Shown here piece after piece: positions 2,458 to 29,511 of a stretch of 64,000 nucleotides of DNA. The DNA comes from Terriglobia bacterium (GTDB lineage: Bacteria > Acidobacteriota > Terriglobia > Bryobacterales > Bryobacteraceae), in contig JAIQFK010000008.1 in NCBI GenBank assembly GCA_020073305.1, forward strand, positions 1 through 64,000. The letters run 5' to 3'. Position 1 is the first letter of the stretch. Every line of letters begins with the position of its first letter. The position numbers and the translations under genes were made by a program. The notes beneath the pieces were generated by a model. It saw only the letters and a program-made list of their open reading frames with translations. It was not told the DNA's origin and did not search any database.

Positions 2458-2459
2458 AT

Positions 2460-12850: not shown

Positions 12851-13261
12851 TCAAACGACCTTGTGATGCGCCTTAAGTGTTGTCCACTCCCGGCGCTGGT
12901 CCGGCCAAGAAAGAGAATTGGCGATCCGACGCACAGCCGCTTCGCTGATGGGATACCGGCCGCCAGTGGGCGGCAGATAGAGAATTTCTTGCTGAATGTC
13001 CGGTGCGAGCCAGACCAGCTCCATGATCTGGCTCATCCGTTCCCGCGTGAGACAGCCAAGCCGGGCCAGGTCGGCGTAATCCCGCGCCTCCCCTCGCTGG
13101 ATCATGTCCTGGAACTGAATAGCCAGCGCCATGACCTGCGTGACCCGGGGCAGACGCCCATTTCCGGAAGCTGGCGCATCAAGCGGCCCCGTTTTCCCCG
13201 GCGGCCGTCCTGTAGCGTGCAAGCGGAACTGAATCTCAACGGTGCTGTTTGGCATGCTCAT
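12851..13261 (-). CDS. Small helical protein adjoining the serine recombinase
   Basis: A 136-residue protein whose ATG overlaps the recombinase 3' end by 26 bp. After a disordered N-terminus it contains a helix-turn-helix-like stretch (DYADLARLGCLTRERMSQIM) followed by WLAPDIQQEILYLP, which recalls the DNA-binding part of ParB/KorB-type proteins. Proteins like this commonly accompany large serine recombinases in phage elements, and a role as recombination directionality or DNA-binding partner is possible but unproven. Confidence 0.6.
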   Translation of the reverse strand: MSMPNSTVEIQFRLHATGRPPGKTGPLDAPASGNGRLPRVTQVMALAIQFQDMIQRGEARDYADLARLGCLTRERMSQIMELVWLAPDIQQEILYLPPTGGRYPISEAAVRRIANSLSWPDQRREWTTLKAHHKVV

Positions 13262-14855
13262 GCTTCTCGGTCAGGGCTGGCGCCCAACCGCAAAATTCTT
13301 TGATTCCCCGTGAACGAAAACTAAGGGTCACCGTCCCGGTCTTGCCGTCATAGCGGACGTGCTCAACCAGCGTATGGATGAACCGCTCTTGCTCCCATGT
13401 AGACAGCTGCTCCCAAAGCGGATCGAAGTCATGGAGTGCCGCTTCCACGCCTTGGGCGTCGACGCCTTCTGCTTCGATGGCAGCCAACTGCTGGCGAAGG
13501 TCGGTCAATCGGCTGCTTAGGTACGACACTCGGTCCTGGAGTTCGGCTAAGCGGCTGGTGGCAATATCGGCCGAGGAACCGGCGCTGCCGGCCGCCGAGA
13601 CGGTCTCCTTCATCTCCTGCGCGATGCTCTGGAGTTCCTTCTCGATGTCCGTCTTTTCCCTTTCTGTCTCCGCCGATTCTCTGTTCCGATGCTCAGCGAG
13701 CTGTCGTAGGACCCCGAGCAGCATGGTGGGATTCTGGCCAATACCTCGGAGTTGCTCTACTACCGCGTTCTCAAGCGCTGGAGCGGACACGGACCGCGTC
13801 TCGCACTGGGTCCAGCCCCGCTGGTGGGCTTTCACGCACACGTAGTAGCGATAAAGCCGATCCTTCTTGTTGACGTAGGTGTGAATCATGCCGACGTTGC
13901 AGCTAGCACACCGTACCAGTCCTTTGAGCAGCGCGGCATACTTGTTGCCAATGTTGCGGCCGCCGCGACGGCCATTCCGGTTGAGGGCACTCTGGACCCC
14001 GTTCCAGGTTTCGTCATCAACAATGCGGTCGTGTTCGCCGTCGTAGACCTGGCCGCCGTAGTCGACTTTGCCCACGTAGATCATATTCGTGAGCAAGTTG
14101 TAGAGGCTGTTTTTTGCAATTGGCTTCCCGCCCGCCTGCCGGCCTTCGCGCGTCGTCCAGGATTTCATCCGCCATCCACGGCGGTCGAGTTCCTCCACCA
14201 CCGGGATCAGTGATCCAAGCTCAAGGTAAAGCGCGAAGATGTCCCGTACTCGCCGCGCCTCCTCAGGGTTCACAACCAGGGCGCCTCCTTTCGGAGCGAC
14301 GTCATAACCGATCACGGGAACGCCGCCAACCCATTTGCCTTTGCGGCGCGCCGCCCCCATCTTGTCGCGAGTGCGCTCGGAGATCATTTCCCGCTCAAAC
14401 TGGGCGAATGAGAGCAGGATATTAAGGGTCAGGCGGCCCATGGAACTGGTCGTATTGAACTGCTGCGTCACCGACACGAACGTCGCGCCGTGCTTGTCCA
14501 GGATCTCCATGATCCGCGCAAAATCGAGCAGCGATCGCGAAAGTCGGTCCACCTTGTAGACCACAACGCAGTTCACGGTACCGGCTTGGACATCGGCGAG
14601 GAGCCGCTTCAGCGCCGGGCGCTCCATGTTGGCTCCGGTGTAGCCGCCGTCGTCGTACTTCTGTGGCAACGCCCGCCACCCTTCCTGGCGCTGGCTGCTG
14701 ATGAACGACTCCGCAGCCTCACGCTGGGCGTCGAGAGTGTTGAAAGCCTGGTCGAGGCCTTCATCCGTCGATTTGCGCGTGTAGATCCCGCACCGAACAC
14801 CCGTCGGTGTCCTGAAGCCGTTGCCGTTTTCCTTCGGCCTCTTGTCACCGCGCAC
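13236..14855 (-). CDS. Large serine recombinase (site-specific integrase/invertase family)
   Basis: The 539-residue protein has the resolvase catalytic domain with the nucleophile serine in IYTRKSTDE near residue 25, an arginine-rich VVYKVDRLSRSLLDF, and FAQFEREMISERTRDKM. The recombinase domain follows, then a zinc ribbon (VRCASC...YYVC...C) and a coiled coil around residues 395-470. It excises or integrates DNA between short att sites. The frame extends to 14894, but GTG at 14855 is preferred because AGGAG lies 7 bp upstream; it overlaps the DUF2924 stop by 11 bp. It is probably the integrase of the element and could also act on the flanking inverted copies. Confidence 0.92.
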   Translation of the reverse strand: MRGDKRPKENGNGFRTPTGVRCGIYTRKSTDEGLDQAFNTLDAQREAAESFISSQRQEGWRALPQKYDDGGYTGANMERPALKRLLADVQAGTVNCVVVYKVDRLSRSLLDFARIMEILDKHGATFVSVTQQFNTTSSMGRLTLNILLSFAQFEREMISERTRDKMGAARRKGKWVGGVPVIGYDVAPKGGALVVNPEEARRVRDIFALYLELGSLIPVVEELDRRGWRMKSWTTREGRQAGGKPIAKNSLYNLLTNMIYVGKVDYGGQVYDGEHDRIVDDETWNGVQSALNRNGRRGGRNIGNKYAALLKGLVRCASCNVGMIHTYVNKKDRLYRYYVCVKAHQRGWTQCETRSVSAPALENAVVEQLRGIGQNPTMLLGVLRQLAEHRNRESAETEREKTDIEKELQSIAQEMKETVSAAGSAGSSADIATSRLAELQDRVSYLSSRLTDLRQQLAAIEAEGVDAQGVEAALHDFDPLWEQLSTWEQERFIHTLVEHVRYDGKTGTVTLSFRSRGIKEFCGWAPALTEKHEHAKQHR

Positions 14856-15357
14856 GACGCCTCTCCTTCTCCAGCCCAAAAAACGCGAAGCCATTCCAAC
14901 GCGTGCCGGTTATCTCGCCGGCGATCGCACTGAGCGAGGCGAATCGCCGGCCATCGTATTCGAATCCCTCGTTGAGGACCTTCACCACGACGGTTTCGGC
15001 CTTGTACTTCTTCACGATCAAGCTCCCCGGCATCGGAAGGCGCGCGTCCCGCGTCTGTATGACCGTCGTTGTCACGGTCTGCTCCAGCGGGACCTGAGCC
15101 AGTCGCCGGGCTGCGTTCTCTGAGATACGCAATCGCAATTCTGTTCCGCGGGCTATGGCGATAGCGTATTGCCGGACCGATTCCGGAAGGCCGTCATTCT
15201 TCGCCGCCTGCAGGTGCCAGGCTATCTTCCGCCTCAGGTGCTGGCAGTTCGCAATCGGATGCTCCGCTCCGAACAATTCCCGGTGTACGGCCTGTAACTG
15301 TGGAGCGTTCATCATCGGCAGATCCCCGATTGCTGGCAGCCCACCACGTTTCTTCAT
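14845..15357 (-). CDS. DUF2924 family protein
   Basis: A 170-residue protein matching the DUF2924 pattern: an N-terminal helical HRELFG motif (LQAVHRELFGAEHPIANC), a central RRKIAWHLQA, and a C-terminal basic beta region (PGSLIVKKYKAETVVV, then FEYDGRRFASLSAIAGEITG). That C-terminal block looks like a small DNA-binding domain. Function is unknown; the family is known for sitting directly upstream of phage serine recombinases, as here. A 4-bp overlap with the preceding small gene and an 11-bp overlap with the recombinase make a tight three-gene operon. A truncated second copy of its 3' part lies near 7514-7611. Confidence 0.8.
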   Translation of the reverse strand: MKKRGGLPAIGDLPMMNAPQLQAVHRELFGAEHPIANCQHLRRKIAWHLQAAKNDGLPESVRQYAIAIARGTELRLRISENAARRLAQVPLEQTVTTTVIQTRDARLPMPGSLIVKKYKAETVVVKVLNEGFEYDGRRFASLSAIAGEITGTRWNGFAFFGLEKERRRAR

Positions 15358-16364: not shown

Positions 16365-17666
16365 ATGTCTTCGCTTGTCGAAGAACCGATCGACAAGGCA
16401 GCGCTGATTGCCAAGGTTGCCAGCAGCCTGGCTGACGACTACCACCGGCGCGGAGGGTATCTCTCCGGCGATCACGTCCTTCGGGCAGTCGAAAAGCGGG
16501 GCTTGGACCCGGAAGACGATGTCCTGATTCGACAACAACTGCGCGACCTTGGAATCGAGGTCGACGATCCCGAAAGCGCCCTCGATTTCGAACGACTTGA
16601 AGAAACTGACGCAAGATCTGAGGACCTAGTTCGCAAGTACTTGCTGGAGATTGGCTCCATCCGGCTACTGAAACCGGAGGATGAGATAACCCTAGCCAGA
16701 AGGATTCAGGCAGGCAAACAGGCAGCTCAGGCGCTGGAAACAAACTCCTTTGAGCAAACCACCTCGGCAGAGCTCGGCAAACGCGTAATCGAGGGACAAG
16801 ACGCAGAGAACCACATGATAGCCGCTAACTTGCGGCTGGTCGTCAGCATCGCGAAGCTGTATTCAACGCGAAGTAGCCTGGAGCTCCTCGATCTGATTCA
16901 AGAGGGCACCTTTGGCCTTTTCAAGGCGGTCGACAAATTCGATCACCAAAAGGGATTCAAGTTGTCCACGTATGCCACTTGGTGGATACGCCAGAGCATT
17001 ACCCGGGCGATCGCCGACACTGGTCGACTGATCAGACTCCCAGTTCATGTTAACGAGTCTATAGCGCGGATCACAAAGATCAAACGAGCACTGACAAGGG
17101 AGAGATTTGGGAAAGAGCCGTCGATAAAGGAGATAGCGGAACAGCTTGGGTGGAAGCCGGAAAAGGTGCAGTTCCTGATGGACATAACCATGGAGCCCCT
17201 CTCTTTGGACACCCCAGTCGGGGATGACAAGGAATCTCTGGCCAGTTTTGTGAGGAGTGCTGCAGAGAGGAGCCCCGAGAGAATCATGATGGCCCTGGAG
17301 CAGTCGATGTTAATCGACGGCGTTCTGTTACAGTTATCTCCCCGCGAGCGCAGTGTTTTGAGACGGCGCTTCGGACTCGATGGGTCTAGGCCAGAGACCC
17401 TTGAAAGGATTAGCCGGACTTTTGATATCACGCGCGAGCGGATCAGGCAGATTGAAGAAAAGGCCCTGAAAAAGCTCAGACACCCTGCCCGAAGGCGCCT
17501 ACTGAGGGAGTTGTGGCCTGCGGCCAGCGGAGATTCACAACCCGACACCGATGGCGGAGCCGCCGCAGAGGCCGGTGGCAAGAAACCTAAGCAGAAGACC
17601 GGACCGAAAGGAAAGAAGAAGCGTGACGGCACAACAGGCAACGACTCGATTCCTCGCATGGCTTGA
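16365..17666 (+). CDS. RpoD-like sigma-70 factor heading the defence island
   Basis: A 433-residue primary-type sigma factor. Residues 85-120 look like region 1.2 ([19 protein letters not shown]). Region 2 spans about 145-215 ([47 protein letters not shown]-type with [13 protein letters not shown]). Region 3 spans about 215-290, and region 4 about 310-385 with a clear helix-turn-helix ([20 protein letters not shown]). A lysine- and glycine-rich tail is unusual. The N-terminus (to about 75) is a separate helical domain. The drmA-like start lies inside its 3' end (44 bp overlap), so it is part of the same operon. It may dedicate RNA polymerase to the island's promoters; that role is inference. 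Confidence 0.88.
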
Positions 17667-20661
17667 TCAGCAGGTGCGGAATGCAGGCCGCGGCGACTCC
17701 CTGAATGAATTGTCAGTAGAGCCGAAAGGGCGTTTTTGGCTTGGGCGCCTCGCATCGGAAGAAGCCGTCATTGATTCCGGCCTTGGAGAGCGCGGCGAAC
17801 GCCTCGATCCGTGCGCAGTTGGAGTCCGTCTCAGGCCTTCGGGAAACGCTCCGTGGACTTTCGTTGTCGAAGTAGTCGCCTGTGTTTGGATGCGGGAAGC
17901 AAACGGAACGTGGCGTAAGTGCCCGAAAATTCGTGAGCCGATTCCGGTTTCCATAGGCGATGCGGAGGGGGACTACGAGTTGGGAGAGGTGCAGTTGACA
18001 GAGGCGCTCCGATTAAGCTGCGGCGAGGCCGGTTTTACCTGTGTTATTCGAGTCGAGGTGCGGAGGGACATGGCTTCGCGCACGGAGCTGACGATTCTCC
18101 TGGTCAACACCTCGCCGAAGGATTCGCCTCCGTTGAGGGACACGACACTCTACGAGTGCGCAGTGGAAGTCAATGGGATCTTGACCGAACCGTTCGTCCT
18201 CGAGTCATTGCCGGATTCTTTCCGTTATGACCGACGCGTCCCCGCATATGGGATTAATTGTGGCGTCCAACTGACGGAGAACAATGGCGTCAGGACGACC
18301 GATGCCATCGTCGCTGACAAGCCCCGCCCGAAGTATTGGAGTGTCGACGATCCCCCTCCCGATCTGACGTTTGCAAAGCTTGCCACGGACCCGGTGCGGA
18401 GTCTTACGCAATTGGTTGAGGCGCACACGAAATGGGGTCGCGAAATATGGACGGCAAGTGGTTTGGACGATCGTTCGCGGAAAGGCTCTTGGTCGTCGGC
18501 GATGAGAGCCCAAGCCGACGTCGCGGCAGCCGAGTTCTGGGCGGAAAACAAACGGTTGATCGACGGTTTGGAACTACTGGGAAGCGCTACCCAGCTTTTG
18601 AAAGCCTTCACATTGATGAATCGGGCGATGTCGTATGCAGCGAACGGCAAGTACGACGAGTGGCGTCCTTTCCAGATCGGCTTTCTTCTCGCCAACCTCT
18701 CGTGCATTACATCTAGCGACAACGAGGCGGAAATCGCTGACGTTGTTTGGTTTGCCACAGGAGGAGGGAAAACCGAGACGTACCTTGGATTGCTGATCAC
18801 TGCCGCTCTCTATGATCGCCTGCGCGGCAAGATTGCGGGCATAACCGCCTGGAGCCGATTCCCGCTCAGGATGCTGTCGCTCCAGCAGACACAACGATTC
18901 GCAGACGCAATGGCAGGGGCGGAGCGTGTGCGTCGCGAGGAGGCAATTTCGGGAGATCCGTTTTCGGTCGGTTTTCTTGTCGGGCAGGGCGCAACCCCCA
19001 ATTCAATTTCGGAGGATCCGCCACCTGGTGATCCCGACCCCGAAGACGACAAGATGCCGGGGCGATATAGAGTGCTGTTGAAATGTCCCTTCTGCCATGA
19101 GAAGTCAATCACGATGGCGTTCGATCGTCGATATTGGCGTCTCGCCCATCAGTGTTCGGGCGAAAATTGTCCGTGGCCCGAGCGAGATTTGCCTTTCTAC
19201 ATTGTTGACGACGAGATCTACCGATTTCTTCCAACCGTCATCGTCGGGACTCTGGACAAAGCCGCGTCGATTGCGATGCAAGGAGGAATGCGCTGTCTCG
19301 TGGGCTCCCCGCTGGGCGTGTGTTCCGAGGAGGGCCACGGCTATACCTATGCACCCCGCAGCAAAAAGCCGAATGGTTGTCTCGTTCCAGGATGTCAAGG
19401 GCGTCCTGTCGGTCTTGCTAGCGGAGAGGAACTTTACGCGCCGACCTTTCGACTACAAGACGAGTTGCACCTCTTGAAGGACAGTCTGGGCGCAGTGGAT
19501 TCCCATTACGAATCGCTTCTAGATCACCTTGAGTCGGAGGTTTCCGGGAGAAAGCCCAAGATCCTTGCATCGTCCGCAACACTGACTGGCTACGAGAGGC
19601 AAATAAGGCTCCTCTATCGGAGGGAGGCTCGGGTCTTCCCTGTCCAAGGTCCGTCTTCAGAGGAGGGATTCTGGACATCGACATCAGACGATTTAGCCCG
19701 TCGTTATGTGGCTGTGGCCCCTCGTGGCGTGACGATTGAGTATGCCGTCGACCGAACGGTGACAGAGCTGCAAAGTGCCGTTCGTAGATTGACAACCGAA
19801 CCGCAGGCAGTGTGCGCCGAAGCTTCAATCGACGCGAGCTGGGTCGAGCAGCTTCTATCGTTGTATGGGGTTGATGTAACCTACGGCAACACTCTTCGCG
19901 ATCTTGACGCGGTCGCACGTTCCTTGGAAACGCAGGTCGACGTCGATGGATCACTGAACACCGCCTCTCTTACCGGAAGAACAGACTTTGAGGACGTAAG
20001 AGCAACGCTCGACCGGCTTGAAAAACCCGAGTTGGCGTTCGATGATCGACTCCACGTCATCACGGCCAGTTCGATGATGTCACACGGCGTGGATATCGAC
20101 CGATTGAATGTGATGGTCATGCTGGGAATCCCCCTCACCGCCGCCGAATTCATCCAGGCGACGGCTCGCGTCGGGCGTCGTTGGCCTGGCTTGGTCTACG
20201 TGATGCACAAGATGGCTCGCGAGAGGGACGCGAGTGTGTTCCGGAGCTTCAAGAAGTTCGTCCAGCAGGGAGACCGATTTGTCGAACCAATCCCTATCAC
20301 TAGGCGAAGTCGACGGGTTCTCGAAAAAACAATTACAGGGCTGGTCTTAGCCCGAATACTGATGGTTCACGAGCCAGGAAGCCGGGACGCTTTGACGACT
20401 GTCAACAAGCTGAGGGGCTACTTCGTCAAGAACGGAGTTACAGAAGGGGCCGAACTTGAAGCCGTCATCAGGATGCTGGGTTTCGACAGCAATCTGGATG
20501 AGGCGCTTCGGAACGATCTTCAGAAATGGTTTCGGCGCTTCTTTGAGAACCTCATGGACCCGGGTGGAACCTTTAAGTGGCCCTCCGATCTTTCCCCAAC
20601 CGGCAAGGCGATGCGATCACTTCGCGATGTTGAAGAGGAGGCTCCGATTCTCGGAGTCTAA
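17623..20661 (+). CDS. drmA: DrmA-like SF2 helicase (DISARM-type)
   Basis: The 1012-residue protein starts at GTG 17623 inside the sigma gene; the frame is open to 17551 but the purine-rich GGAAAGAAGAAG just upstream favours this start. SF2 helicase motifs are visible: VWFATGGGKTETYLG (Walker A, near residue 380), RLQDELHLL (DExH-type, near 612), LASSATLTG (motif III, near 650), TASSMMSHGVDIDR near 820 and QATARVGR (motif VI, near 845). Between motifs I and II lies a cysteine-rich insert (CPFC near 488, CSGENC near 511). Size, insert and the following DUF1998 gene match DrmA of DISARM, which with DrmB restricts incoming phage DNA. Other SF2 defence helicases are possible. Confidence 0.8.
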   Translation: MTAQQATTRFLAWLDQQVRNAGRGDSLNELSVEPKGRFWLGRLASEEAVIDSGLGERGERLDPCAVGVRLRPSGNAPWTFVVEVVACVWMREANGTWRKCPKIREPIPVSIGDAEGDYELGEVQLTEALRLSCGEAGFTCVIRVEVRRDMASRTELTILLVNTSPKDSPPLRDTTLYECAVEVNGILTEPFVLESLPDSFRYDRRVPAYGINCGVQLTENNGVRTTDAIVADKPRPKYWSVDDPPPDLTFAKLATDPVRSLTQLVEAHTKWGREIWTASGLDDRSRKGSWSSAMRAQADVAAAEFWAENKRLIDGLELLGSATQLLKAFTLMNRAMSYAANGKYDEWRPFQIGFLLANLSCITSSDNEAEIADVVWFATGGGKTETYLGLLITAALYDRLRGKIAGITAWSRFPLRMLSLQQTQRFADAMAGAERVRREEAISGDPFSVGFLVGQGATPNSISEDPPPGDPDPEDDKMPGRYRVLLKCPFCHEKSITMAFDRRYWRLAHQCSGENCPWPERDLPFYIVDDEIYRFLPTVIVGTLDKAASIAMQGGMRCLVGSPLGVCSEEGHGYTYAPRSKKPNGCLVPGCQGRPVGLASGEELYAPTFRLQDELHLLKDSLGAVDSHYESLLDHLESEVSGRKPKILASSATLTGYERQIRLLYRREARVFPVQGPSSEEGFWTSTSDDLARRYVAVAPRGVTIEYAVDRTVTELQSAVRRLTTEPQAVCAEASIDASWVEQLLSLYGVDVTYGNTLRDLDAVARSLETQVDVDGSLNTASLTGRTDFEDVRATLDRLEKPELAFDDRLHVITASSMMSHGVDIDRLNVMVMLGIPLTAAEFIQATARVGRRWPGLVYVMHKMARERDASVFRSFKKFVQQGDRFVEPIPITRRSRRVLEKTITGLVLARILMVHEPGSRDALTTVNKLRGYFVKNGVTEGAELEAVIRMLGFDSNLDEALRNDLQKWFRRFFENLMDPGGTFKWPSDLSPTGKAMRSLRDVEEEAPILGV

Positions 20662-20669
20662 GGACGCCA

Positions 20670-22424
20670 ATGAAAGAATATCGAAGCGCATCGCAGATTC
20701 TCTTCGGCTTCCTTCCCGAACAAACGGTTGACCTGAAGGGTATGGTTTGGAAGGTCAAGGAATGGGTCGAGCCTTACGGTCGTTCGATTGAACAAGAGAG
20801 TCTTCGTCAGGAACTGGCGCGGGTTGCTGCTCCGTGGGATGTCGCGGGCAAAGACGGAAAATACGTCGACAATCTGAGGCAGGGCTATACGGTTCGCGTT
20901 CTGGCTTTGAACAAGGAGCTCGGCGTCAAGGTCGAGAAGTTCCCAAAGCTATGGGTGTGCAAAAGCTGTGATCGGCTGCACCAAGGGAACGAGCCCACCA
21001 GGTGTATTTGCATCGGCACGAGATTTGGCCAGCTCCCCTTCGTTGGATATCATGATGAATGCGGCGGGGTTCGGTCGCCTTACATTTCCTCCTGTCCAAC
21101 CCACAAACAAGTGAAGATCATCCTGCCCGGCACGGCGCGGGCGGAGGAAATCCGATTCGTGTGTCCAATTTGCAGCAGGACCTTACAGAAGGGATTCGGA
21201 TTTCCAAAATGTGACTGCGGAAGAGGAAGCTGGACTTTCAACGTACACCGTGCGGCATCGGTCTTCACGCCGCGCACGATTGTAATGATCAACCCACCCT
21301 CGCTTGAAAAGGTTGCGAAGATCCGTGATGCGGGAGGAGCGGCACGAGCTTTATCCTGGGTCCTAAGCGGACTCAGTGCCAACTCCTTCGACGAGACCGG
21401 CACCACTATTGAATCATTCAAGGCAACTCTTCTCAAACAAGGAATACCCGAGGCACTGGCGGATCAGATGGTCGACCAGGCGACCAACAGCGGCGCAATC
21501 AGCAAAGCGGATGGTGGCCCAATCAATCTTCAGGGTGAGTACCTTAGAGAGGCGCAGGCCGGTGCAGTCAGCATCGCACTCGCCTTGTCTGACTCCAGGT
21601 TACGGGTAGGTGATCTGGCAAAGGCGACGGACGCCAGTTCAGAGCTTGGTAGGAAGTATCGGTCGGCATATCCGAAGGCATCGCGATTTATGGGGATCGA
21701 AGATATCGAGTTTATGGACTCGTTTCCGGTTCTGACGGGGTGTTACGGCTATACGCGCGGCGATTCCGATCCTGGCGCCTCGAGGCTCGTCCCCTTCAAG
21801 AACAAAAAAGGGGACTACGTAGTATACGGCGAGGTCATCCAAACGGAGGCACTCTTCGTGCGTCTCGATCCACGCCGTGTCGCTGAATGGCTGGTTAGGA
21901 ATGGCTGGGCAATTCCCCCATGGACCGACGCGAGGAGCGCGCGCGTATCGATACTGAGAAACGCTTTGGTACCGGCACCAGGATCTGAAACGAACCCTCC
22001 AACCGCGGGATCGCGATTGCTCACGCTCGTGCACAGCTATGCTCATTGGTTTACCCGTCAACTTGCCGTGAGAGCAGGGATCGAACGAAGCTCACTCTCC
22101 GAATTTCTGGTGCCGCAGCACTGCGGCTTTTTCATCTATGCTGCAACAAGGGGCGACTTCGTGCTCGGCGGCCTCCAGGCGGTCTTTGAGACGGAGCTCG
22201 ACTCGTTCTTGAGCGAGTTGGCGTCTTTGGACTTGAGGTGCCCTCTCGATCCGGGTTGCATGCGGATCGCCGGCGCCTGCATGGCCTGCCTCCACTTGGG
22301 AGAACCGTCCTGCCGCTACTACAACGGCTATTTGAATCGTCAGACCCTTGTCGGCCCCGGAGGTTTTCTTTCCGTTGTGGCTGCTAACCGGCGGCTGGAA
22401 GAGGGCTCGGCAATTTCAACGTGA
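20670..22424 (+). CDS. drmB: DrmB-like protein with C-terminal DUF1998
   Basis: A 584-residue protein starting 8 bp after the helicase stop. Two zinc-binding regions are visible: CKSCDRLHQG...CICIG near residue 97-115 and CPICSRTL...CDCG near 165-182. The C-terminal third is a DUF1998 region, LLTLVHSYAHWFTRQLA near 450 followed by a cysteine cluster (LRCPLDPGCM...CMACLHLG) and YNGYLNR. DrmB forms a complex with DrmA in DISARM and is needed for the DNA-blocking activity; the order here, helicase then DUF1998 protein, is that of DISARM. No drmC (PLD), drmD or drmE follows. Confidence 0.8.
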   Translation: MKEYRSASQILFGFLPEQTVDLKGMVWKVKEWVEPYGRSIEQESLRQELARVAAPWDVAGKDGKYVDNLRQGYTVRVLALNKELGVKVEKFPKLWVCKSCDRLHQGNEPTRCICIGTRFGQLPFVGYHDECGGVRSPYISSCPTHKQVKIILPGTARAEEIRFVCPICSRTLQKGFGFPKCDCGRGSWTFNVHRAASVFTPRTIVMINPPSLEKVAKIRDAGGAARALSWVLSGLSANSFDETGTTIESFKATLLKQGIPEALADQMVDQATNSGAISKADGGPINLQGEYLREAQAGAVSIALALSDSRLRVGDLAKATDASSELGRKYRSAYPKASRFMGIEDIEFMDSFPVLTGCYGYTRGDSDPGASRLVPFKNKKGDYVVYGEVIQTEALFVRLDPRRVAEWLVRNGWAIPPWTDARSARVSILRNALVPAPGSETNPPTAGSRLLTLVHSYAHWFTRQLAVRAGIERSSLSEFLVPQHCGFFIYAATRGDFVLGGLQAVFETELDSFLSELASLDLRCPLDPGCMRIAGACMACLHLGEPSCRYYNGYLNRQTLVGPGGFLSVVAANRRLEEGSAIST

Positions 22425-22657: not shown

Positions 22658-23470
22658 ATGCCCGCAAGTAACCACAAGAATAGAGTTCAGCCGGCACAGT
22701 CTCGACGAGAAGAACTGCTGAGGATGAAGAGCCAACTGGAGGACCTGCTGAGTGGCGTCGAAGCACAGATCAGGGAGACAGGAACTCCCGAAATGGTTGA
22801 CCCGAAGGAATCCAGCGGCAGAGCGCACGAAATTCGTTGGACTGGATCAAAACGGCCCGTTCGTGAATTAGTGCTCGATTCCCTGGACGAGCTTGGTTGG
22901 CCCGCATACACGCGGGAGATCACTCAATACAGCGCAGCCCGTTTTGGCCGCGAAATCGCCGCCACCCGCTACGGATCTCTAATGAAGGATGAGATGCAAG
23001 CATTTCGCCCCGGTACCAGTCGGCGGCCGGTTTGGCTTTGCTTCGCGCTCACGAGCGATCGGCATCAAGCAATCAAGCGGCTTCTGTGTCGTTCGGACTG
23101 GCCTCTGGATCGGCGCATTCTAGCGCCCACCTCGGGTCTGGTGCAGTATCTGAACCTCACGGCTCGCTTGTGTGAGCTTGCAGCAAAGTTCGAGTCCTCG
23201 GCGGCAGACCCGCAGATGCTGAGGATCATTGCAGCCGACCATGCACGCGACCTGCCAGGTGTTCGATTGATCAAAGGGAAATTCGATCTGGAAGGCTGGC
23301 GTTCGGTCGCGCTAGAGCAACTTCGCGACGCCGCAGAACGGGACGAAGTAGCACGGAAGGCTTCTGCCGAACGCTTGGAAGCAAGGTCTGAACTCTACCA
23401 GCTCTTCGGGATGCCGGACCTTCATGAAGGGCCGGCGACCGAGGCCAATGAGCAGAGGGTGGGATCGTAG
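22658..23470 (+). CDS. Coiled-coil / winged-helix-like protein of the defence island
   Basis: No family was recognised for this 270-residue protein. Residues 15-45 are a heptad-like coiled coil (REELLRMKSQLEDLLSGVEA). Residues 70-135 look like a winged-helix domain: RPVRELVLDSLDELGWP, then ITQYSAARFGREIAATRYGS and a strand ending in RPVWLCFAL. The C-terminal part is helical and charged. It ends 6 bp before the Cas4-like gene and heads the four-gene block, so a DNA-binding sensor or regulator of the system is plausible. That is inference from fold impression and position. Confidence 0.6.
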   Translation: MPASNHKNRVQPAQSRREELLRMKSQLEDLLSGVEAQIRETGTPEMVDPKESSGRAHEIRWTGSKRPVRELVLDSLDELGWPAYTREITQYSAARFGREIAATRYGSLMKDEMQAFRPGTSRRPVWLCFALTSDRHQAIKRLLCRSDWPLDRRILAPTSGLVQYLNLTARLCELAAKFESSAADPQMLRIIAADHARDLPGVRLIKGKFDLEGWRSVALEQLRDAAERDEVARKASAERLEARSELYQLFGMPDLHEGPATEANEQRVGS

Positions 23471-23476
23471 GACCGC

Positions 23477-24547
23477 ATGAGCCTCTCAAGCACTCGCGGC
23501 TTAGTCAGGATCTCCATCAATCCAAGATGCGAGTTCCAGGCGGCCATGGTAGCGGAGGGCGTCCGGGAGCCGGAGTTGTTCCGGCGGGTGACCGGTCGGG
23601 AGTACGATCGCGAATATGGCGAGCGGGCTTCAGCGCGTAGCCGCGGGGCCAAGTTTGAAGAGAACTTATGCATGAATAATGCCGCGTTGCTTAGGTCGGC
23701 ACTTGCTCGCCTTTATGGTTACAACCCCGAAGAAATGGTGGTTCGCAATTTCGCCGACGAGGTCCCTGGAGTGAAAGGTGTGCGGGTGATACGGCTCAAC
23801 CGGACTAGGCAGGTTCTGCGAGACTTGGCCGCCGGGAACGAGGTCCCACATCTGCTCATTCAACCGCAACTATCTCTTCCTATTGAGCTCGATCGGAGCT
23901 TCGTCGAATACGTGGCTCCAGATTTCATGGTTCTCGATGGTCGAACAAACATCTATCGCCCCGGCGAAATGAAGAGCTTCATTATCCGTGAGGGTAGAGC
24001 AGACAAGGCAGACTTAAACCTTACCCGCAGGCAAGCCGCCGCGCAGATCCTCGCATTGCGCAGTGAATGCGTGCCCTACGATCTTGCCGGACGGGTGACC
24101 AGCGCGGCGACGTTTATTTTTGCGACACCCTACGGACTCTCGCCCGCTGCGCCGTTCGAGGATGTCCTTGAAGGGCCAATTCGAGAGATCGGCCGCGCAA
24201 TTGAGGTGCTTCGAGCGGCCCGCCGCCGTCTGGAATCTCGGCGGCAGCAGGATGGAGCACGGCTGGAGATGCTTTACGACGAGATCCCGGTCAGTTTCCA
24301 GGAATCATGCCTCGGCTCATGCATTATGGCGGGCGAATGCAAGAAGAAAATGGCCGCTTCTGGACGAGTCCTGGGTGACGAGATCGGTGATCTGCTTGGC
24401 GAGGACATCAGCCTCGAGCGCGCCGTCGAGCTACTGGGCGGAGCGGAGCCGGAGAACCCGGCTGAGCGCGAAATCGCGGAACGGCTCTCTGATGGAGCTT
24501 CTATTCTGGGTTCCGGCGAACCCGGCACGGGGCGGAGGGTGGCATGA
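23477..24547 (+). CDS. Cas4/RecB-like PD-(D/E)XK nuclease with probable Fe-S cysteines
   Basis: The 356-residue protein shows the PD-(D/E)XK core: PDFMVLDG (D149 or D154), GEMKSF with E164-x-K166, and a following RQAAAQILALR helix (QxxxQ/Y-type motif III, near 185). One cysteine lies near the N-terminus (C18, NPRCEFQ) and three cluster at the C-terminus (C278, C282, C288 in CLGSCIMAGECKK). One N-terminal plus three C-terminal cysteines around a RecB-type nuclease is the layout of Cas4, AddB and Dna2 Fe-S nucleases. It should cleave or resect single-stranded ends. No CRISPR array or cas gene is nearby. ATGA overlap with the next gene shows coupling. Confidence 0.75.
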   Translation: MSLSSTRGLVRISINPRCEFQAAMVAEGVREPELFRRVTGREYDREYGERASARSRGAKFEENLCMNNAALLRSALARLYGYNPEEMVVRNFADEVPGVKGVRVIRLNRTRQVLRDLAAGNEVPHLLIQPQLSLPIELDRSFVEYVAPDFMVLDGRTNIYRPGEMKSFIIREGRADKADLNLTRRQAAAQILALRSECVPYDLAGRVTSAATFIFATPYGLSPAAPFEDVLEGPIREIGRAIEVLRAARRRLESRRQQDGARLEMLYDEIPVSFQESCLGSCIMAGECKKKMAASGRVLGDEIGDLLGEDISLERAVELLGGAEPENPAEREIAERLSDGASILGSGEPGTGRRVA

Positions 24548-25947
24548 TCGACAATTCGATACTGACCGCTCGCCTATTGGCGCATCGAGACCGGCGAGCG
24601 GTGCGGGTACGGGATAGAAGAACCGTATGCGATGACCCGCTTATTGTCTTTGGAATCGCTCCAATTCGCGTGGTGGCTGAGCAACGGGTCCAGGCCATCG
24701 CATTCGGACAGGTTGGAGAGACGCCCCAGATCGTGGTGAGCTGGAATCCTCTCAGCCGCGAATCGGCCAATATGAACCCGTTTGCGGAGGCGTTGAATGA
24801 CTACTTCCAAACGGCCATATCCAGCGATCAGCTTCCAAGGATATGGCTGCCACATCCAGCTGCCGTCGAATTAATCGATATTCTCGGGTACCGTTACCGG
24901 ACTAATTCACAGGCCAGCGATGCGCTGAAGCGCATGGGGGCCCAATGTCGCGCCATCATAGAAGAGGCTGCGTACAACGACCAGCAAGTCGTCATGGTTG
25001 CCTCAGAACTCTTGAATCGGCACATCGTGACAGGCCAAAGCGGAGTCGAAGAACTTCATCTCGGCGCACTGCTAGCATGGGTCAACTCGCCAGCGGGTGT
25101 CGACCCAAGGGAAGAGGCGGATCGGCGTTCAGCCATGCCAGCCGCAGCGATGTTGGATTGGAGGGATGACGAGCGAGTCGAGGAGCTTAGACGCCAAGCG
25201 AAGGAGGAGTCGCCGCGGGGGCTCGCAGCGCGCAGCCGTATTGAGCGGATTCTGACAAATGGAGCGCAGGCAGAGTGGAATTTGCTCGAAGAAGCTCGAA
25301 CAGCTTTTTGGGCGTTGGCTATTCCCCCTGTCTCAGGCGTCGATATCTTGCGATCCGAATCACAAAGACGATTCGCCGACGCGCTTTCAACTCCCTTGAA
25401 TCCTCCCACGCGCGTCCACAGCTTGGGTCGCCTAATGGATGATTACGAGCTAGCCTTCGACGTAGCGGAGGACAGGGAGATCAGTTCCGACTCAATGTCC
25501 AGGGAGCGTGCTCGGCGGGCTGGCCGTGTCGTCCGTGCAGAAATCGAGCAGATCGTCCAACCACGTTCAAGCCGGAAGCCGTGCACCATCAAGCTCCTCT
25601 GCGACCAGCCGGTGATTCGTATTCGTCGCGGGACGGCGCTCAAATCGCTGAATGGTCGGGTCCATGGAATTGTGACTGACCTAGCCGAAGCCCGCCCTGG
25701 GCTGGTGCGAATCAACATAGATGTGACGAAGGGAGTCAGAAGGGGCGACCTCTCAAGCATCCCGCGGACCGGAGATTGGATTGACACGATCATTGTCGAT
25801 CTCCGATTCCGACGGCGACAAATCTACGGACGTCTGAGGAATGCCGCTCCTGCAATCGTCTATCAAGGGACGCTACCTTCGCCGATAGTTCGACAGGGCG
25901 GTCCAATCGACTGGATCTCTATTGCGGAGGCGTTGCGGCGATCATGA
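24544..25947 (+). CDS. Unknown 467-residue protein between nuclease and helicase
   Basis: No family was recognised. The N-terminal third mixes strands and helices (DPLIVFGIAPIRVVAEQRVQ, then IVVSWNP). The middle is helical and charged (about 200-260, EERVEELRRQAKEES-like). The C-terminal 120 residues are rich in short strands (IKLLCDQPVIRIRR, GRVHGIVTDLAEA, RINIDVTKGVRRGDL, DTIIVDLRFR) and could form a small beta-barrel. It overlaps both neighbours by 4 bp, so the three proteins are probably made in a fixed ratio. By analogy with Dna2, which has a barrel between nuclease and helicase, it may bridge the two enzymes; this is speculative. Confidence 0.6.
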   Translation: MIDNSILTARLLAHRDRRAVRVRDRRTVCDDPLIVFGIAPIRVVAEQRVQAIAFGQVGETPQIVVSWNPLSRESANMNPFAEALNDYFQTAISSDQLPRIWLPHPAAVELIDILGYRYRTNSQASDALKRMGAQCRAIIEEAAYNDQQVVMVASELLNRHIVTGQSGVEELHLGALLAWVNSPAGVDPREEADRRSAMPAAAMLDWRDDERVEELRRQAKEESPRGLAARSRIERILTNGAQAEWNLLEEARTAFWALAIPPVSGVDILRSESQRRFADALSTPLNPPTRVHSLGRLMDDYELAFDVAEDREISSDSMSRERARRAGRVVRAEIEQIVQPRSSRKPCTIKLLCDQPVIRIRRGTALKSLNGRVHGIVTDLAEARPGLVRINIDVTKGVRRGDLSSIPRTGDWIDTIIVDLRFRRRQIYGRLRNAAPAIVYQGTLPSPIVRQGGPIDWISIAEALRRS

Positions 25948-27296
25948 GACCGGTATTGACTGTGGAACAGCTGATGAGACGGACGGCCAACCGTGTATTC
26001 GAGACCCTCTTCAACGAGGGTGCGCGGATCACTATCGTTGACTCGCCCCCAGGCGCGGGTAAAACGGACCTCGTCGAGAAGACGGCCGCTCTGGCAGTTC
26101 AACAGCTCGGATTGAGTGTCGCCGTGGTCACGCCCACTGTTGAACAGTCCTTTGACCTAATCCGCCGCCTCGTAGCCAACTTCGAAAGGCTACCGATCGA
26201 GATTCTGCTCAGCGAGAGTCGCCAGCTGCCCGCCGACTTGGCGGCAGATCCGCGTGTACCTGCGCCCATATCGATGCCCCGCGCATTACGTCGCGGCCGT
26301 AGCATCGTTATCGGAACCGTAGACAAGTTCTTCTTTGGCTCGGACGATGCCGGACTGCAGGGATTTGATGTGATGGTGTGCGACGAAGCTTACCAGGTCG
26401 CATATAGGAAATTCGCGCCCCTTCTTACCCTCGCCGAGCAGTTCCTTTTCGTCGGTGATCCCGGTCAGCTCCCCCCGTTATCGCGAGTCGAACTTGCGAG
26501 ATTTGAAGGAGCACCATCCAAAGTGCATTGGGCCGTGCCCAAAGAGTTGCTGCGCCTGCATCCCGAGATTCCGGTAATCCAACTGCCGGCATCCAGGCGC
26601 CTGCCTCAAGACACAATCGATTTCCTCCAGCCGAGCTTCTATCCGACATTGCCCTTTCAGTCTTCTGCTCCGGTGCAGCAGCGGCGGCTCTCCGTTAGAA
26701 ACCGAGGTTTCGGCGGGTTGATCGACATAGCTGTTGATCGTTTATGTCGTGGTGAAACGGTGGTATCGCTGATTCTGCCTCCGTCGCCGACGTTAACCCC
26801 TGATTTCGATGAGGAGGTTGCGGAGACGATGGCAGACGTTGTGCGCCGAATCATCGATCGTGGGATGACGATGGGTGCCGGGCTCCGACTCACGGGCGAC
26901 AACATCGGGTGCGTGGATGCTCACGTGGCGTCTGGGGCAAATGTAACCAAGGCATTGCGTGCTCGCACCCTCGGGAGCGAGATCATGGTGGGCACACCTG
27001 AGATTTGGCAGGGCCTTCAACGGCCAGTGATGGTTGTCAAGCATCCGCTCAGCGGGCTCAAAAAATTGGATCGGTTTGCTCTAGACCCTGGACGCTGCTG
27101 CGTCATGCTGTCACGACATCAGGCAGGCTGTGTAGTCGTTGCGCGGGACGGTGTTGAGCAGGTTCTCGACGCGCACCAGCATGACTGTGAGTCGACTCCA
27201 ATGGCCGCCGTCGACGCGGAATGGAACGGATGGCGCGCCCACCGTACTCTATGGGACGGACTAAGGAGCGGAGGTCGCTTGCTGTCCGCCAACTGA
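25944..27296 (+). CDS. SF1 helicase-like ATPase of the defence island
   Basis: The 450-residue protein has the motifs of a superfamily 1 helicase: PPGAGKT (K40), a motif Ia VAVVTPTVEQSFDLI, motif II CDEAYQ (D147-E148), motif III FLFVGDPGQLPPLS near 171, and motif VI-like CCVMLSRHQAGCVVV near 388. It is short for SF1B enzymes and lacks an obvious 1B/2B insertion. With the Cas4-like nuclease two genes upstream it resembles a split Dna2 or AddAB-type helicase-nuclease. It is translationally coupled to the upstream gene (ATGA) and is the last gene of the plus-strand operon, ending 28 bp before the convergent methyltransferase. Confidence 0.8.
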   Translation: MRPVLTVEQLMRRTANRVFETLFNEGARITIVDSPPGAGKTDLVEKTAALAVQQLGLSVAVVTPTVEQSFDLIRRLVANFERLPIEILLSESRQLPADLAADPRVPAPISMPRALRRGRSIVIGTVDKFFFGSDDAGLQGFDVMVCDEAYQVAYRKFAPLLTLAEQFLFVGDPGQLPPLSRVELARFEGAPSKVHWAVPKELLRLHPEIPVIQLPASRRLPQDTIDFLQPSFYPTLPFQSSAPVQQRRLSVRNRGFGGLIDIAVDRLCRGETVVSLILPPSPTLTPDFDEEVAETMADVVRRIIDRGMTMGAGLRLTGDNIGCVDAHVASGANVTKALRARTLGSEIMVGTPEIWQGLQRPVMVVKHPLSGLKKLDRFALDPGRCCVMLSRHQAGCVVVARDGVEQVLDAHQHDCESTPMAAVDAEWNGWRAHRTLWDGLRSGGRLLSAN

Positions 27297-27324: not shown

Positions 27325-28473
27325 TTAGTCCGAATGGTCAATGTGCCTCTTCAAGTCATGTGCGAAGCGCGACGGGTAATGAAGAGTACTTGCCATCAAG
27401 CGGCGATAGAAGCCTTCCGCCGCCTTCCGAGATAGCGGTCGGCAGGGGAACTGAAGAAATCTATCGATTCGCGTCATGGCCTTGTTGACGGGCCACGTAG
27501 AAACCACCCCTGCGTACCGCTTGCCTTTTCCTCCGAAAGCGGCCTTGGGCCATCCCATCCTGACATTGAGTTCACACGCGTCGTTCGGCTCACTCGCAGG
27601 AGAACAGCGTAATGCCATGCCCAGCCATTCGGAGACTGGGGTGGTGACTGCGTTTCCGACAAGACGCCACCTACACCCTCGAGTTGCGACTTGTTCGGCG
27701 GGTGCGGTCCAGTCGGCGGAAAATCCTTGAAGCCGCTCGGCGTCACGGATATCTAGCGTCATGATGTGTCCTTTGGGCATCCAGATCGCGGGTGGCGAAG
27801 GTATTCCCAGAGTTGATCCACCTTTGAGGGTCGGTACACAGCCCTGGGCCCAGCCAAGCCCGTTATTACCCTCTGTCCAATAGAACCCGCACGGAGGAGT
27901 GTCAGTCTGGATAGAGTCCTCTGGCCCTGCGTCTTGACTCAGCAGCACGCTGGCGGGGTCGCCATGGATTGATGCGAGCAAGAACACACGGAGCCGTCTT
28001 TGAGGGATGCCGAAAGCCCTGGTGTCGATCGTGCGATATGCCCACTTATAGCCCAAGTCTTCAAGGGAACGCACGACGTAGTCAATCATGGCACCTCTGT
28101 GAAGCTGCAGCATGAACGGAACGTTTTCGAGAAGCACCCATGGCGTTTGTATTTGCTTGAGGATTCTGAAAACGTGAGACACGATTGTCGACTTCTTGCC
28201 GTTCAATCCTTGGGTAAGCCCCACTTGCGACAAATCCTGGCAAGGGAACCCAGCAGTGAGCAGATCAACATCTCGCGGAACAGCATCGATTTCTGCGACA
28301 TCTGTGATGAGGAGCCTTCTCTTGAAGTGCTTCCGCAAGACAGCCTGCGCGGCCAAGTCGTTCTCGCAAAGAAGAACGGACTTGTGGCCAGCCCTCTCTA
28401 AACCGACTTCGAAGCCGCCAATACCAGCGAAGATGCCCGCCACTCTTAGCGCCTTTTGGCGTTTGAATTTCAT
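27325..28473 (-). CDS. DNA (cytosine-5) methyltransferase
   Basis: The frame is open to 28605, but ATG at 28473 is chosen because it overlaps the Vsr stop (TGATG) and begins just before motif I. All key motifs are present: AGIFAGIGGFEVGLE (motif I), GFPCQDLSQ (catalytic Cys, motif IV), LLENVPFM (motif VI), IPQRRLRVFLLA (motif VIII) and the C-terminal GNAVTTPV (motif X). It methylates cytosine C5 in a specific site and presumably marks self DNA. DISARM class 2 also pairs DrmA/DrmB with a 5mC methyltransferase. It is convergent with the helicase operon, so its promoter is separate. The recognition sequence cannot be read here. Confidence 0.92.
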   Translation of the reverse strand: MKFKRQKALRVAGIFAGIGGFEVGLERAGHKSVLLCENDLAAQAVLRKHFKRRLLITDVAEIDAVPRDVDLLTAGFPCQDLSQVGLTQGLNGKKSTIVSHVFRILKQIQTPWVLLENVPFMLQLHRGAMIDYVVRSLEDLGYKWAYRTIDTRAFGIPQRRLRVFLLASIHGDPASVLLSQDAGPEDSIQTDTPPCGFYWTEGNNGLGWAQGCVPTLKGGSTLGIPSPPAIWMPKGHIMTLDIRDAERLQGFSADWTAPAEQVATRGCRWRLVGNAVTTPVSEWLGMALRCSPASEPNDACELNVRMGWPKAAFGGKGKRYAGVVSTWPVNKAMTRIDRFLQFPCRPLSRKAAEGFYRRLMASTLHYPSRFAHDLKRHIDHSD

Positions 28474-28934
28474 CACGATCCTTGTTTTTGGCCGGCGTGC
28501 GAGAAGAGAAGCCTCGCCAGGCGGCCGCGAAGCTGGGCGACGTTTCGTAGCTGGCACTCCCAGACAATGACAACACGAAAGCCGAGGCGCCTCAACGCCC
28601 GGCACTTGTGCGCGTCGCGACGCCTGTTATCTTCAAGCTTGTTCCTCCAGAAGTGATGCCTCACTTTCGGTATGCGGGAGCCAGCCCCCCCTTTCGTCTT
28701 TGGGCAATTCTTGTGCCCGTGCCAGAAACACCCGTTCACGAAGACCGCCCACCGCTTCGTTCGATTCGCAAGGTCCGGGGACCCTGGCAGATCTCCATTT
28801 CCCAGACGGTATCGAGTACCAAGAGCTGTCATCAGCTTTCGCACCTTGAGCTCCGCACCGGTGTTGGTCTGCTTGACCGCTTTCATCATACGAGAGCGGG
28901 TGGCTGGCGAAACAATGTCCCTTGGGCGTACCAA
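28473..28934 (-). CDS. vsr: Very short patch repair endonuclease (Vsr)
   Basis: The 153-residue protein matches Vsr: a start region ATRSRMMKAVKQTNTGAE, the catalytic Asp in GSPDLANR, then FVNGCFWHGHKNCP with the zinc and active-site Cys/His residues, and VRHHFWRNKLEDNRRRD. Vsr nicks T:G mismatches left by deamination of 5-methylcytosine. It is encoded directly before, and overlapping, the C5 methyltransferase, the usual arrangement. The start used is TTG at 28934; no good Shine-Dalgarno is seen, so an internal start is possible. Confidence 0.92.
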   Translation of the reverse strand: MVRPRDIVSPATRSRMMKAVKQTNTGAELKVRKLMTALGTRYRLGNGDLPGSPDLANRTKRWAVFVNGCFWHGHKNCPKTKGGAGSRIPKVRHHFWRNKLEDNRRRDAHKCRALRRLGFRVVIVWECQLRNVAQLRGRLARLLFSHAGQKQGS

Positions 28935-29272: not shown

Positions 29273-29346
29273 TGGCTCCCCGGCATGGATTCGAACCACG
29301 ATTCACGGCTCCAAAGGCCGCTGTCCTACCATTAGACGACCGGGGA
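29273..29346 (-). tRNA. tRNA-Gln (anticodon TTG)
   Basis: On the minus strand TCCCCGG pairs with CCGGGGA, the D arm and T arm (GGTTCGAATCC) are complete, and the anticodon loop CTTTGGA gives anticodon TTG. CCA is encoded at 29273-29275, giving 74 nt. The defence island ends next to its 3' end, the side where integrases usually recombine, so this gene is a candidate attachment site. Confidence 0.95.
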
Positions 29347-29415: not shown

Positions 29416-29511
29416 GGAAGCTAGTCTTGGCCGGTGCCCGGCGCGGGCTTCAAACCCGTCGTGCGGCACTTTCGTGTCGCAGGTGGGTTCGACTCCCACT
29501 AGCTTCCGCCA
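29416..29511 (+). tRNA. selC: tRNA-Sec (selenocysteine, anticodon TCA)
   Basis: The 96-nt gene has an extended acceptor stem (GGAAGCTAG with CTAGCTTCC), a long D stem, a long variable arm (GTGCGGCA/TGTCGCA-type hairpin), T-arm GGGTTCGACTCCC and encoded CCA. The anticodon loop gives TCA at 29450-29452, which reads UGA. These features identify selC and imply that the organism makes selenoproteins. No selA, selB or selD is in the window. Confidence 0.93.

Follow-up and report, generated by a model that had tools for sequence, protein, structure and literature searches.

The 64,000-nucleotide stretch analyzed here (hereafter the window), positions 1 to 64,000 of contig JAIQFK010000008.1 from a bacterium of the Terriglobia, carries on its plus strand a row of genes made up of a sigma factor, a DrmA-like gene, a DrmB-like gene, and, as its tail, four genes that we call A, B, C, and D and that together form the cassette described in this study. 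A first-pass annotation, made from the letters alone, had singled out the last three as a Cas4-like iron-sulfur (Fe-S) nuclease, a protein of unknown function, and a superfamily 1 (SF1) helicase, and had read them as a split machine of the Dna2 or AddAB type. These three genes are present with the coordinates and lengths that it gave, and the B/C and C/D reading frames each overlap by 4 bp. The annotation overlooked gene A as a member of the cassette, the DrmA- and DrmB-like genes upstream, and the methyltransferase and Vsr genes downstream. The cassette is composed as follows:

Gene A, 22658..23470, plus strand, 270 aa: fourth gene of the cassette, conserved, with a coiled-coil-like N-terminus and a conserved core.
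Gene B, 23477..24547, plus strand, 356 aa: predicted iron-staple nuclease of the Cas4/RecB type.
Gene C, 24544..25947, plus strand, 467 aa: conserved partner, with C-terminal helices and a beta-barrel (about residues 286-425) that resemble a stalk and barrel.
Gene D, 25944..27296, plus strand, 450 aa: predicted SF1B motor of the DNA2/Upf1 type, consisting of domains 1A and 2A only.

The window copies of A, B, and C matched no model with a useful score in PADLOC, Pfam-A, or NCBIfam; D matches AAA_30 and AAA_11. Relatives were therefore described from our own profiles, one set of which was used to type A-D in 84 sources: the window, three plasmid loci, and 80 genome loci, the last being the best 80 of at least 556 confirmed by tblastn (at least 592 stretches were matched by the helicase alignment) and dominated by Actinomycetota. 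The first relatives had come from weak tblastn matches of C on three actinobacterial plasmid records, all of which hold A-B-C-D in the same order as the window. Gene content across the 84 sources is A-B-C-D in 39 (window included), B-C-D in 37, C-D in 3, and D alone in 5, gene order agrees with A-B-C-D in every source, and the carriers, many of them soil bacteria, are chiefly Actinomycetota, cultured Streptomyces among them. Among the genome loci, 73 extend 5 kb or more upstream of D, and in 69 of these D is accompanied by both B and C (in one, L006, B is broken); the exceptions are one locus in which C is found only far away (L015) and three in which D stands without B or C in the examined flanks (L062, L071, and L072). 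B-C and C-D have the same median gap, -4 bp. Pairwise BLAST between Streptomyces and the window gave 34% identity for A (over 131 aa, E 2e-19), 26% for B (1e-14), 23% for C (1e-12), and 32% for D (3e-41). Correlations among the A-D distance matrices are 0.93-0.98, which is weak evidence because shared organismal phylogeny accounts for them. Within the phylum of the window, the cassette occurs in 2 of 396 genomes, the window's own included, and the second of these (L089) carries B-C-D on a contig that ends 231 bp upstream of its B. No match was returned by tblastn of B against plasmids, by scans of viral contigs with B and with C, or by a search for D in phages, and the sole match of B against 151 related genomes was the window's own copy.

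Residue conservation was read from aligned subsets of the sequences of the wanted length (23 of 67 for B, chosen for diversity, 30 of 74 for C, 15 of 82 for D, and 18 of 36 for A); from each subset, two plasmid rows were dropped and one genome row was added. Gene D reads as an SF1B motor of the Upf1/DNA2 type. The GAGKT, DEAY, and GDPGQLPP motifs had been reported for the 450-aa protein; in the alignment, SPPGAGK, DEAY, and GDPGQL occur in all 15 sequences, the window included. Searched against the PDB, the D profile matches DNA2 (7e-16), SMUBP-2 (1.6e-15), and UPF1 (1.4e-12) ahead of the RecD entry 3e1s (3.6e-5), and no UvrD/AddA entry is among the 23 PDB entries listed for it; it also matches chain 9kwf_B, a "putative deoxyribonuclease" of 434 aa and thus of nearly the same length as D (E 3.6e-9). 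The best NCBIfam match of D is the PLuB system helicase-like protein NF040671 (15/15 members, best E 9.1e-19), a model of 1256 positions that is far longer than D and under whose cut-off D falls, followed by the IGHMBP2 family (13/15 members, 1.8e-12). Nine single-chain helicase open reading frames (ORFs) from the same phylum also have a motor that D matches (hhalign 99.9%, E 2e-32). The motor of DNA2 and of the Upf1 group is preceded by a barrel that sits on a two-helix stalk, and in DNA2 this stalk and barrel lie between the nuclease and a helicase domain of ~450 residues; RecD2 has neither barrel nor stalk (PMC4716839). The 450 aa of D equal the length of that DNA2 helicase domain, and its Walker A lysine sits at residue 31-56 in 15/15 sequences, with start codons chosen by the analyst (residue 40 in the window); therefore, D has no room for a stalk and barrel of its own.

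It is gene C that probably supplies the barrel and stalk missing from D, as judged from its predicted structure and from remote sequence similarity. The model of C (pLDDT 79) consists of long helices with a barrel at residues 328-420, and its best VIA-align matches are Senataxin (Z 10.1, 6.7 Å over 125 residues), Sen1 (Z 9.6, 2.3 Å over 86 residues, and 9.4), DNA2 (Z 8.9, 2.8 Å over 105 residues), and Ighmbp2 (Z 8.7, 2.2 Å over 87 residues). No credible Pfam family was found in the 30 C members. When the profile of C residues 286-425 was compared with eight of the single-chain helicase ORFs, the match fell before the motor (E 0.0067), landing on residues 622-699 of one of them (L139), whose Walker A is at 788; three other segments of C in the same comparison gave E values of 0.34-0.82. 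The suggestion that the middle protein might provide a beta-barrel thus agrees with the best model matches, which are to stalk and barrel regions, with the reservation that generic barrels come close.

Additional information on C comes from plasmids of Rhodococcus, Mycobacterium, Xylanimonas, and Pseudarthrobacter (L148-L151), where D-like motors are located in MoxR/VWA gene groups, with no match to B or A in the stretch examined. On each of these four plasmids a gene of 368-395 aa stands directly before D (on the opposite strand in Pseudarthrobacter). The C profile missed these genes under default filters; in an unfiltered search, two of the four score as remote C homologues with 18.7 and 14.0 bits, the best of 1000 shuffles reaching 5.2. 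Aligned together, the four genes match C at 91% in hhalign (E 1.2e-6), compared with 0.11 for a reversed copy and 0.6 for a VWA control. Two plasmids have a C-like gene, so C can go with D where B is absent. The MoxR/VWA groups are possibly a separate system with the same split motor.

Gene B is predicted, from conserved residues and a structural model, to be a RecB/Cas4-type nuclease with four iron-staple cysteines, which would bind an Fe-S cluster. The cysteines named in the first-pass annotation (C18, C278, C282, and C288) are invariant in the 23 aligned sequences, window included, as are K166 and Q186. Of the other residues named there, E164 is identical in 22/23 and D149 in 20/23, and D154 is not conserved. 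Past E164-x-K166, where a Q-rich helix had been noted, Q186 begins a Q-x3-Y motif whose tyrosine is present in 22/23 sequences, and the window has Q190 in its place. Structure prediction of the 356-aa protein, which had been proposed as a check, was run and returned a RecB/Cas4-type fold (pLDDT 73), with Cas4 (7mi4_A) as the best VIA-align match (Z 12.6, 3.7 Å over 198 residues), MGME1, RecE, AddAB, AdnA, and Exo5 at Z 8-10, and DNA2 at Z 7.7. Pfam PDDEXK_1 matches 4 of 23 B members, the window's not among them (best E 0.0015). A PDB profile search with B hit only designed repeat proteins via a 30-residue helical stretch, and these hits were judged spurious. No direct-repeat family of at least 22 bp was found in the 64-kb window, and cas1/cas2 were not searched for as such; the view that B is not a CRISPR adaptation Cas4 is upheld insofar as the window shows no array.

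Homologues of gene A lie upstream of B in 39/84 sources, window included. The window protein matches no Pfam family, its relatives give only weak coiled-coil-like matches, and a PDB profile search with A returned only coiled-coil-like stretches at E 0.035 and up. A is possibly an accessory, DNA-binding subunit.

The remaining genes of the row and those 3' of D are the following:

RpoD-type sigma factor, 16365..17666, plus strand: Pfam sigma-70 regions 1.2, 2, 3, and 4.
DrmA-like (YprA-family) helicase, 17551..20661, plus strand: PADLOC DrmA, 2e-105.
DrmB-like protein, 20670..22424, plus strand: PADLOC DrmB, 6e-26.
Cytosine-5 DNA methyltransferase, 27325..28605, minus strand: PADLOC MTase_II, 6e-132; Pfam DNA_methylase, 2.5e-46.
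Vsr-type endonuclease, 28473..28934, minus strand: NCBIfam vsr, 1e-34.

From the alignment position of its relatives, the GTG at 17623 is the likelier start of the DrmA-like ORF, and the methyltransferase likely starts near 28476. A gap of 233 bp separates the DrmB-like gene from gene A, and the methyltransferase, with Vsr on the same strand, is convergent with the cassette. The likeness to DISARM consists of the DrmA-like gene, the DrmB-like gene, and the nearby 5mC methyltransferase (adjacent but convergent); the differences are the lack of a DrmC PLD nuclease, in whose slot A-B-C-D are found, and the sigma factor at the head. The DrmA-like and DrmB-like proteins score under the NCBIfam cut-offs and are 48% identical over 1027 aa and 43% identical over 571 aa, respectively, to those of a related locus (L103). 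There, a methyltransferase-Vsr fusion lies upstream, a PLD nuclease DrmC (2.7e-15) directly follows DrmB, and an 830-aa protein with no PADLOC match precedes DrmA (L103:4487-6979). PADLOC found no DrmC among eight window proteins, and the one PLDc_2 match in the window genome is on another contig. DrmAB loads on, or prefers, DNA with a 5' overhang; DrmC can be dispensed with and is absent in many cases, which leaves the nuclease of DISARM open (PMC9142583). The arrangement in the window suggests that the cassette is a DISARM nuclease, which one example cannot prove. The sigma factor that heads the DrmA-DrmB genes may drive the island's own transcription; no BLAST homologue of it was found in the stretches examined around the related DrmAB loci L103, L105, and L106.

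GC content stays at 0.56-0.60 over roughly the first 30 kb; farther on it is mostly 0.60-0.65 but falls twice, to 0.57-0.58. The low-GC part is bordered on its right by a tRNA-Gln (29273-29346) and a selenocysteine tRNA (29416-29511; Rfam 76.5 bits). A serine recombinase is located upstream of the defense genes. The low GC, the tRNA-Gln at the change in GC, and the upstream recombinase therefore make the region look like an acquired island. Left of the defense genes, 826-3812 and 13236-15357 encode a terminase large subunit, a ParB-N/N6-N4 methylase, a large serine recombinase, and a DUF2924 protein, which look like a phage or other mobile element.

The gene order B-C-D is the domain order of DNA2 (nuclease, stalk/barrel, motor), so a split DNA2 is the best reading of the three genes. 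We propose that they encode one DNA2-like helicase-nuclease on three polypeptides, which in the window would most likely be the nuclease arm of a DISARM-like defense; we give this reading a probability of about 0.68. The Dna2-type side of the first-pass annotation thus gains support from the fold and cysteines of B, the DNA2, SMUBP-2, and UPF1 matches of D, and the barrel matches of C. Under this proposal, B would be the Fe-S nuclease part, D would form the 1A-2A motor of a 5'-to-3' SF1B helicase, and C would contribute stalk and beta-barrel, holding nuclease and motor together. Once assembled, the proteins would engage single-stranded DNA that has a free 5' end, and this strand would be threaded, moved, and cut, with A as an accessory and possibly DNA-binding subunit. 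Loading on the 5' strand and cutting are proposed by analogy with DNA2 and the bacterial enzyme Bad, for which a 5'-to-3' motor, a preference for 5' flaps, and threading are described (PMC7430649). In the window, the cassette would stand in place of the DrmC nuclease and would cooperate with DrmAB against phages, with the convergent 5mC enzyme as the methyltransferase of the system.

Comparison with known systems places the cassette close to Bad and to eukaryotic DNA2. Bad of Geobacillus stearothermophilus likewise has an Fe-S nuclease whose four cysteines span the domain, an SF1B motor, and a long central region that puts Walker A at K815 (B plus C plus 40 residues of D give 863), and the bad gene also adjoins a DNA methyltransferase gene; however, Bad is one polypeptide and is described as rare, whereas the cassette consists of three genes and is common in the Actinomycetota genomes found (PMC7430649). 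Eukaryotic DNA2 (PDB 5eax/5ean), whose domain order equals the gene order B-C-D (PMC4716839), is the best match of the D profile and matches the barrel of C; in contrast to it, the cassette is split in three and has an extra N-terminal half of C and the accessory A. Nuclease and helicase do not share a polypeptide here, and they are encoded separately in the relatives too. TM0106-type single-chain RecB-like nuclease-helicases (an NCBI name) have a motor that matches D (1.5e-21), but they are single-chain and have other inserts; on a Sphingobium plasmid (L152:2853-9892), such a helicase-nuclease is followed by genes annotated as SbcD-like and SbcC-like and then by a methyltransferase. Earlier work had noted Cas4-like nucleases beside YprA-family (COG1205) helicases as well as UvrD-Cas4 fusions accompanied by Dcm/Vsr; those systems resemble the window in the Cas4-like nuclease near a YprA-family helicase or Dcm/Vsr, and the part of PMC5704561 that describes them mentions no separate SF1B motor or C-like protein. 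A 2025 survey of YprA-family systems reports many uncharacterized DISARM-like classes and, in its accessible part, names no three-gene DNA2 (PMC12458937). The literature searched (titles and abstract openings, for part of the matches only) names no three-gene or split DNA2. A single-chain bacterial DNA2 (Bad) is thus already known, and the split three-gene form is new as far as these searches go.

Several results weigh against the proposed reading. For C, generic barrels score from Z 8.7 downward, so that DNA2 and Ighmbp2 tie with them, Sen1 is less than 1 Z above them, and only Senataxin exceeds them by more than 1. The sequence profile of C hits nothing in the PDB except a heat-shock protein (E 0.83), its match to the single-chain helicases has an HH-suite probability of 6%, the barrel alone (320-425) gives E 0.10, and the other two plasmid candidates for C score under zero, no better than shuffled sequences. 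For B, three of the 23 sequences are without D149, one of them also without E164, the B profile matches none of the nine single-chain helicase proteins, and B is broken beside intact C and D in Candidatus Viridilinea (L006:8016-8598). Foldseek gave no match with E < 0.001 for the models of B and C. Regarding the DISARM context, no DrmA or DrmB was found in the examined flanks of the 83 other sources, which leaves the window as the only case of the pairing, the DrmAB of L103 has no cassette, and the 233-bp gap between the DrmB-like gene and A also counts. Finally, many Streptomyces and Nonomuraea loci share a conserved neighborhood that appears ordinary, by the analyst's reading alone, and an ordinary neighborhood in Streptomyces fits DNA repair better than defense.

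Two alternatives keep the helicase-nuclease and change its role, and we consider each a serious contender, somewhat short of an even chance. The cassette may be a DNA-repair machine for end resection, a bacterial counterpart of Mre11-Rad50 plus DNA2, which happened to end up behind DrmAB within a defense island, or it may act by itself against phages or plasmids and share no more than the island with DrmAB. Both are favored by the DrmAB linkage being unique to the window. The neighbor genes were called with a crude custom gene caller that misplaced some of them, and 10 chosen proteins per library were typed. SbcD and SbcC homologues adjoin the cassette in 7/83 other sources (L004, L007, L008, L014, L019, L035, and L067; in L019 and L035 the SbcC match covers only about 185 aa), with SbcCD fragments in L002, and these neighbors point to repair, as do the syntenic chromosomal location in Streptomyces and Nonomuraea and the TM0106-type relative on the Sphingobium plasmid, where the following genes carry the names "DNA repair exonuclease" and double-strand-break-repair "AAA family ATPase." On the other hand, the patchy occurrence (2/396 genomes in the window's phylum) argues against a repair role, and so do the plasmid and variable contexts, in which the cassette adjoins Wadjet (L002 and L004), Shango SngC (L008, 5.5e-268; an nSTAND3 protein occurs in L014), restriction genes (a GmrSD gene between C and D plus HsdR in L051, type IV restriction in L067), and DrmAB in the window. 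The window genome moreover has another helicase-nuclease-like ORF (L107), found by a TIGR03491 search and read by the analyst as UvrD/AddA-type; the A-D profiles do not match it. The occurrence on plasmids and beside several different defense systems fits a stand-alone defense system, which would also have its own potential start after the 233-bp gap; the ordinary-looking Streptomyces neighborhood and the lack of a PADLOC model for the window A, B, or C speak against it.

Two further alternatives concern the machine itself. It is unlikely that C is an unrelated adaptor, D a minimal RecD2-like SF1B helicase on its own, and B a separately acting nuclease: the near-equal scores of generic barrels, the loci in which D is without B or C or has C far away, and the existence of SF1B helicases of the RecD2 type without barrel and stalk (PMC4716839) would all fit, but the D profile prefers DNA2/Upf1 to the listed RecD entry, C occurs with D in 69/73 loci, and two of the four plasmids without B carry a C-like gene ahead of D. 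The AddAB half of the first-pass annotation fares worse, and an AddAB/RecBCD-type machine is very improbable even though AddAB chains (Z 9.3 and 8.2) and AdnA (9.1) are among the fold matches of B, because AddA has a UvrD-type motor and D, which is of the Upf1/DNA2 type, does not. The cassette also has a single motor gene with no UvrD-like partner.

Beyond the split DNA2-like helicase-nuclease that we favor, C-D may represent a general split SF1B motor, with barrel/stalk and RecA domains on separate polypeptides, that is coupled to exchangeable effectors: B with SbcCD in an end resection resembling MRN-DNA2, B behind DrmAB in replacement of DrmC, and MoxR-VWA without B on actinobacterial plasmids. 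This broader view is speculative and, in our estimate, rather doubtful; if true, it would explain, for the window, by what means a DISARM-type complex that has no DrmC can cut phage DNA. The three-gene form across actinobacterial genera would provide nuclease, barrel/stalk, and motor already separated by nature, and the SbcCD genes and several defense systems among its neighbors would link DNA end resection with antiviral defense. The cassette is also a candidate, open to testing, for the nuclease that is missing from DISARM systems without DrmC.

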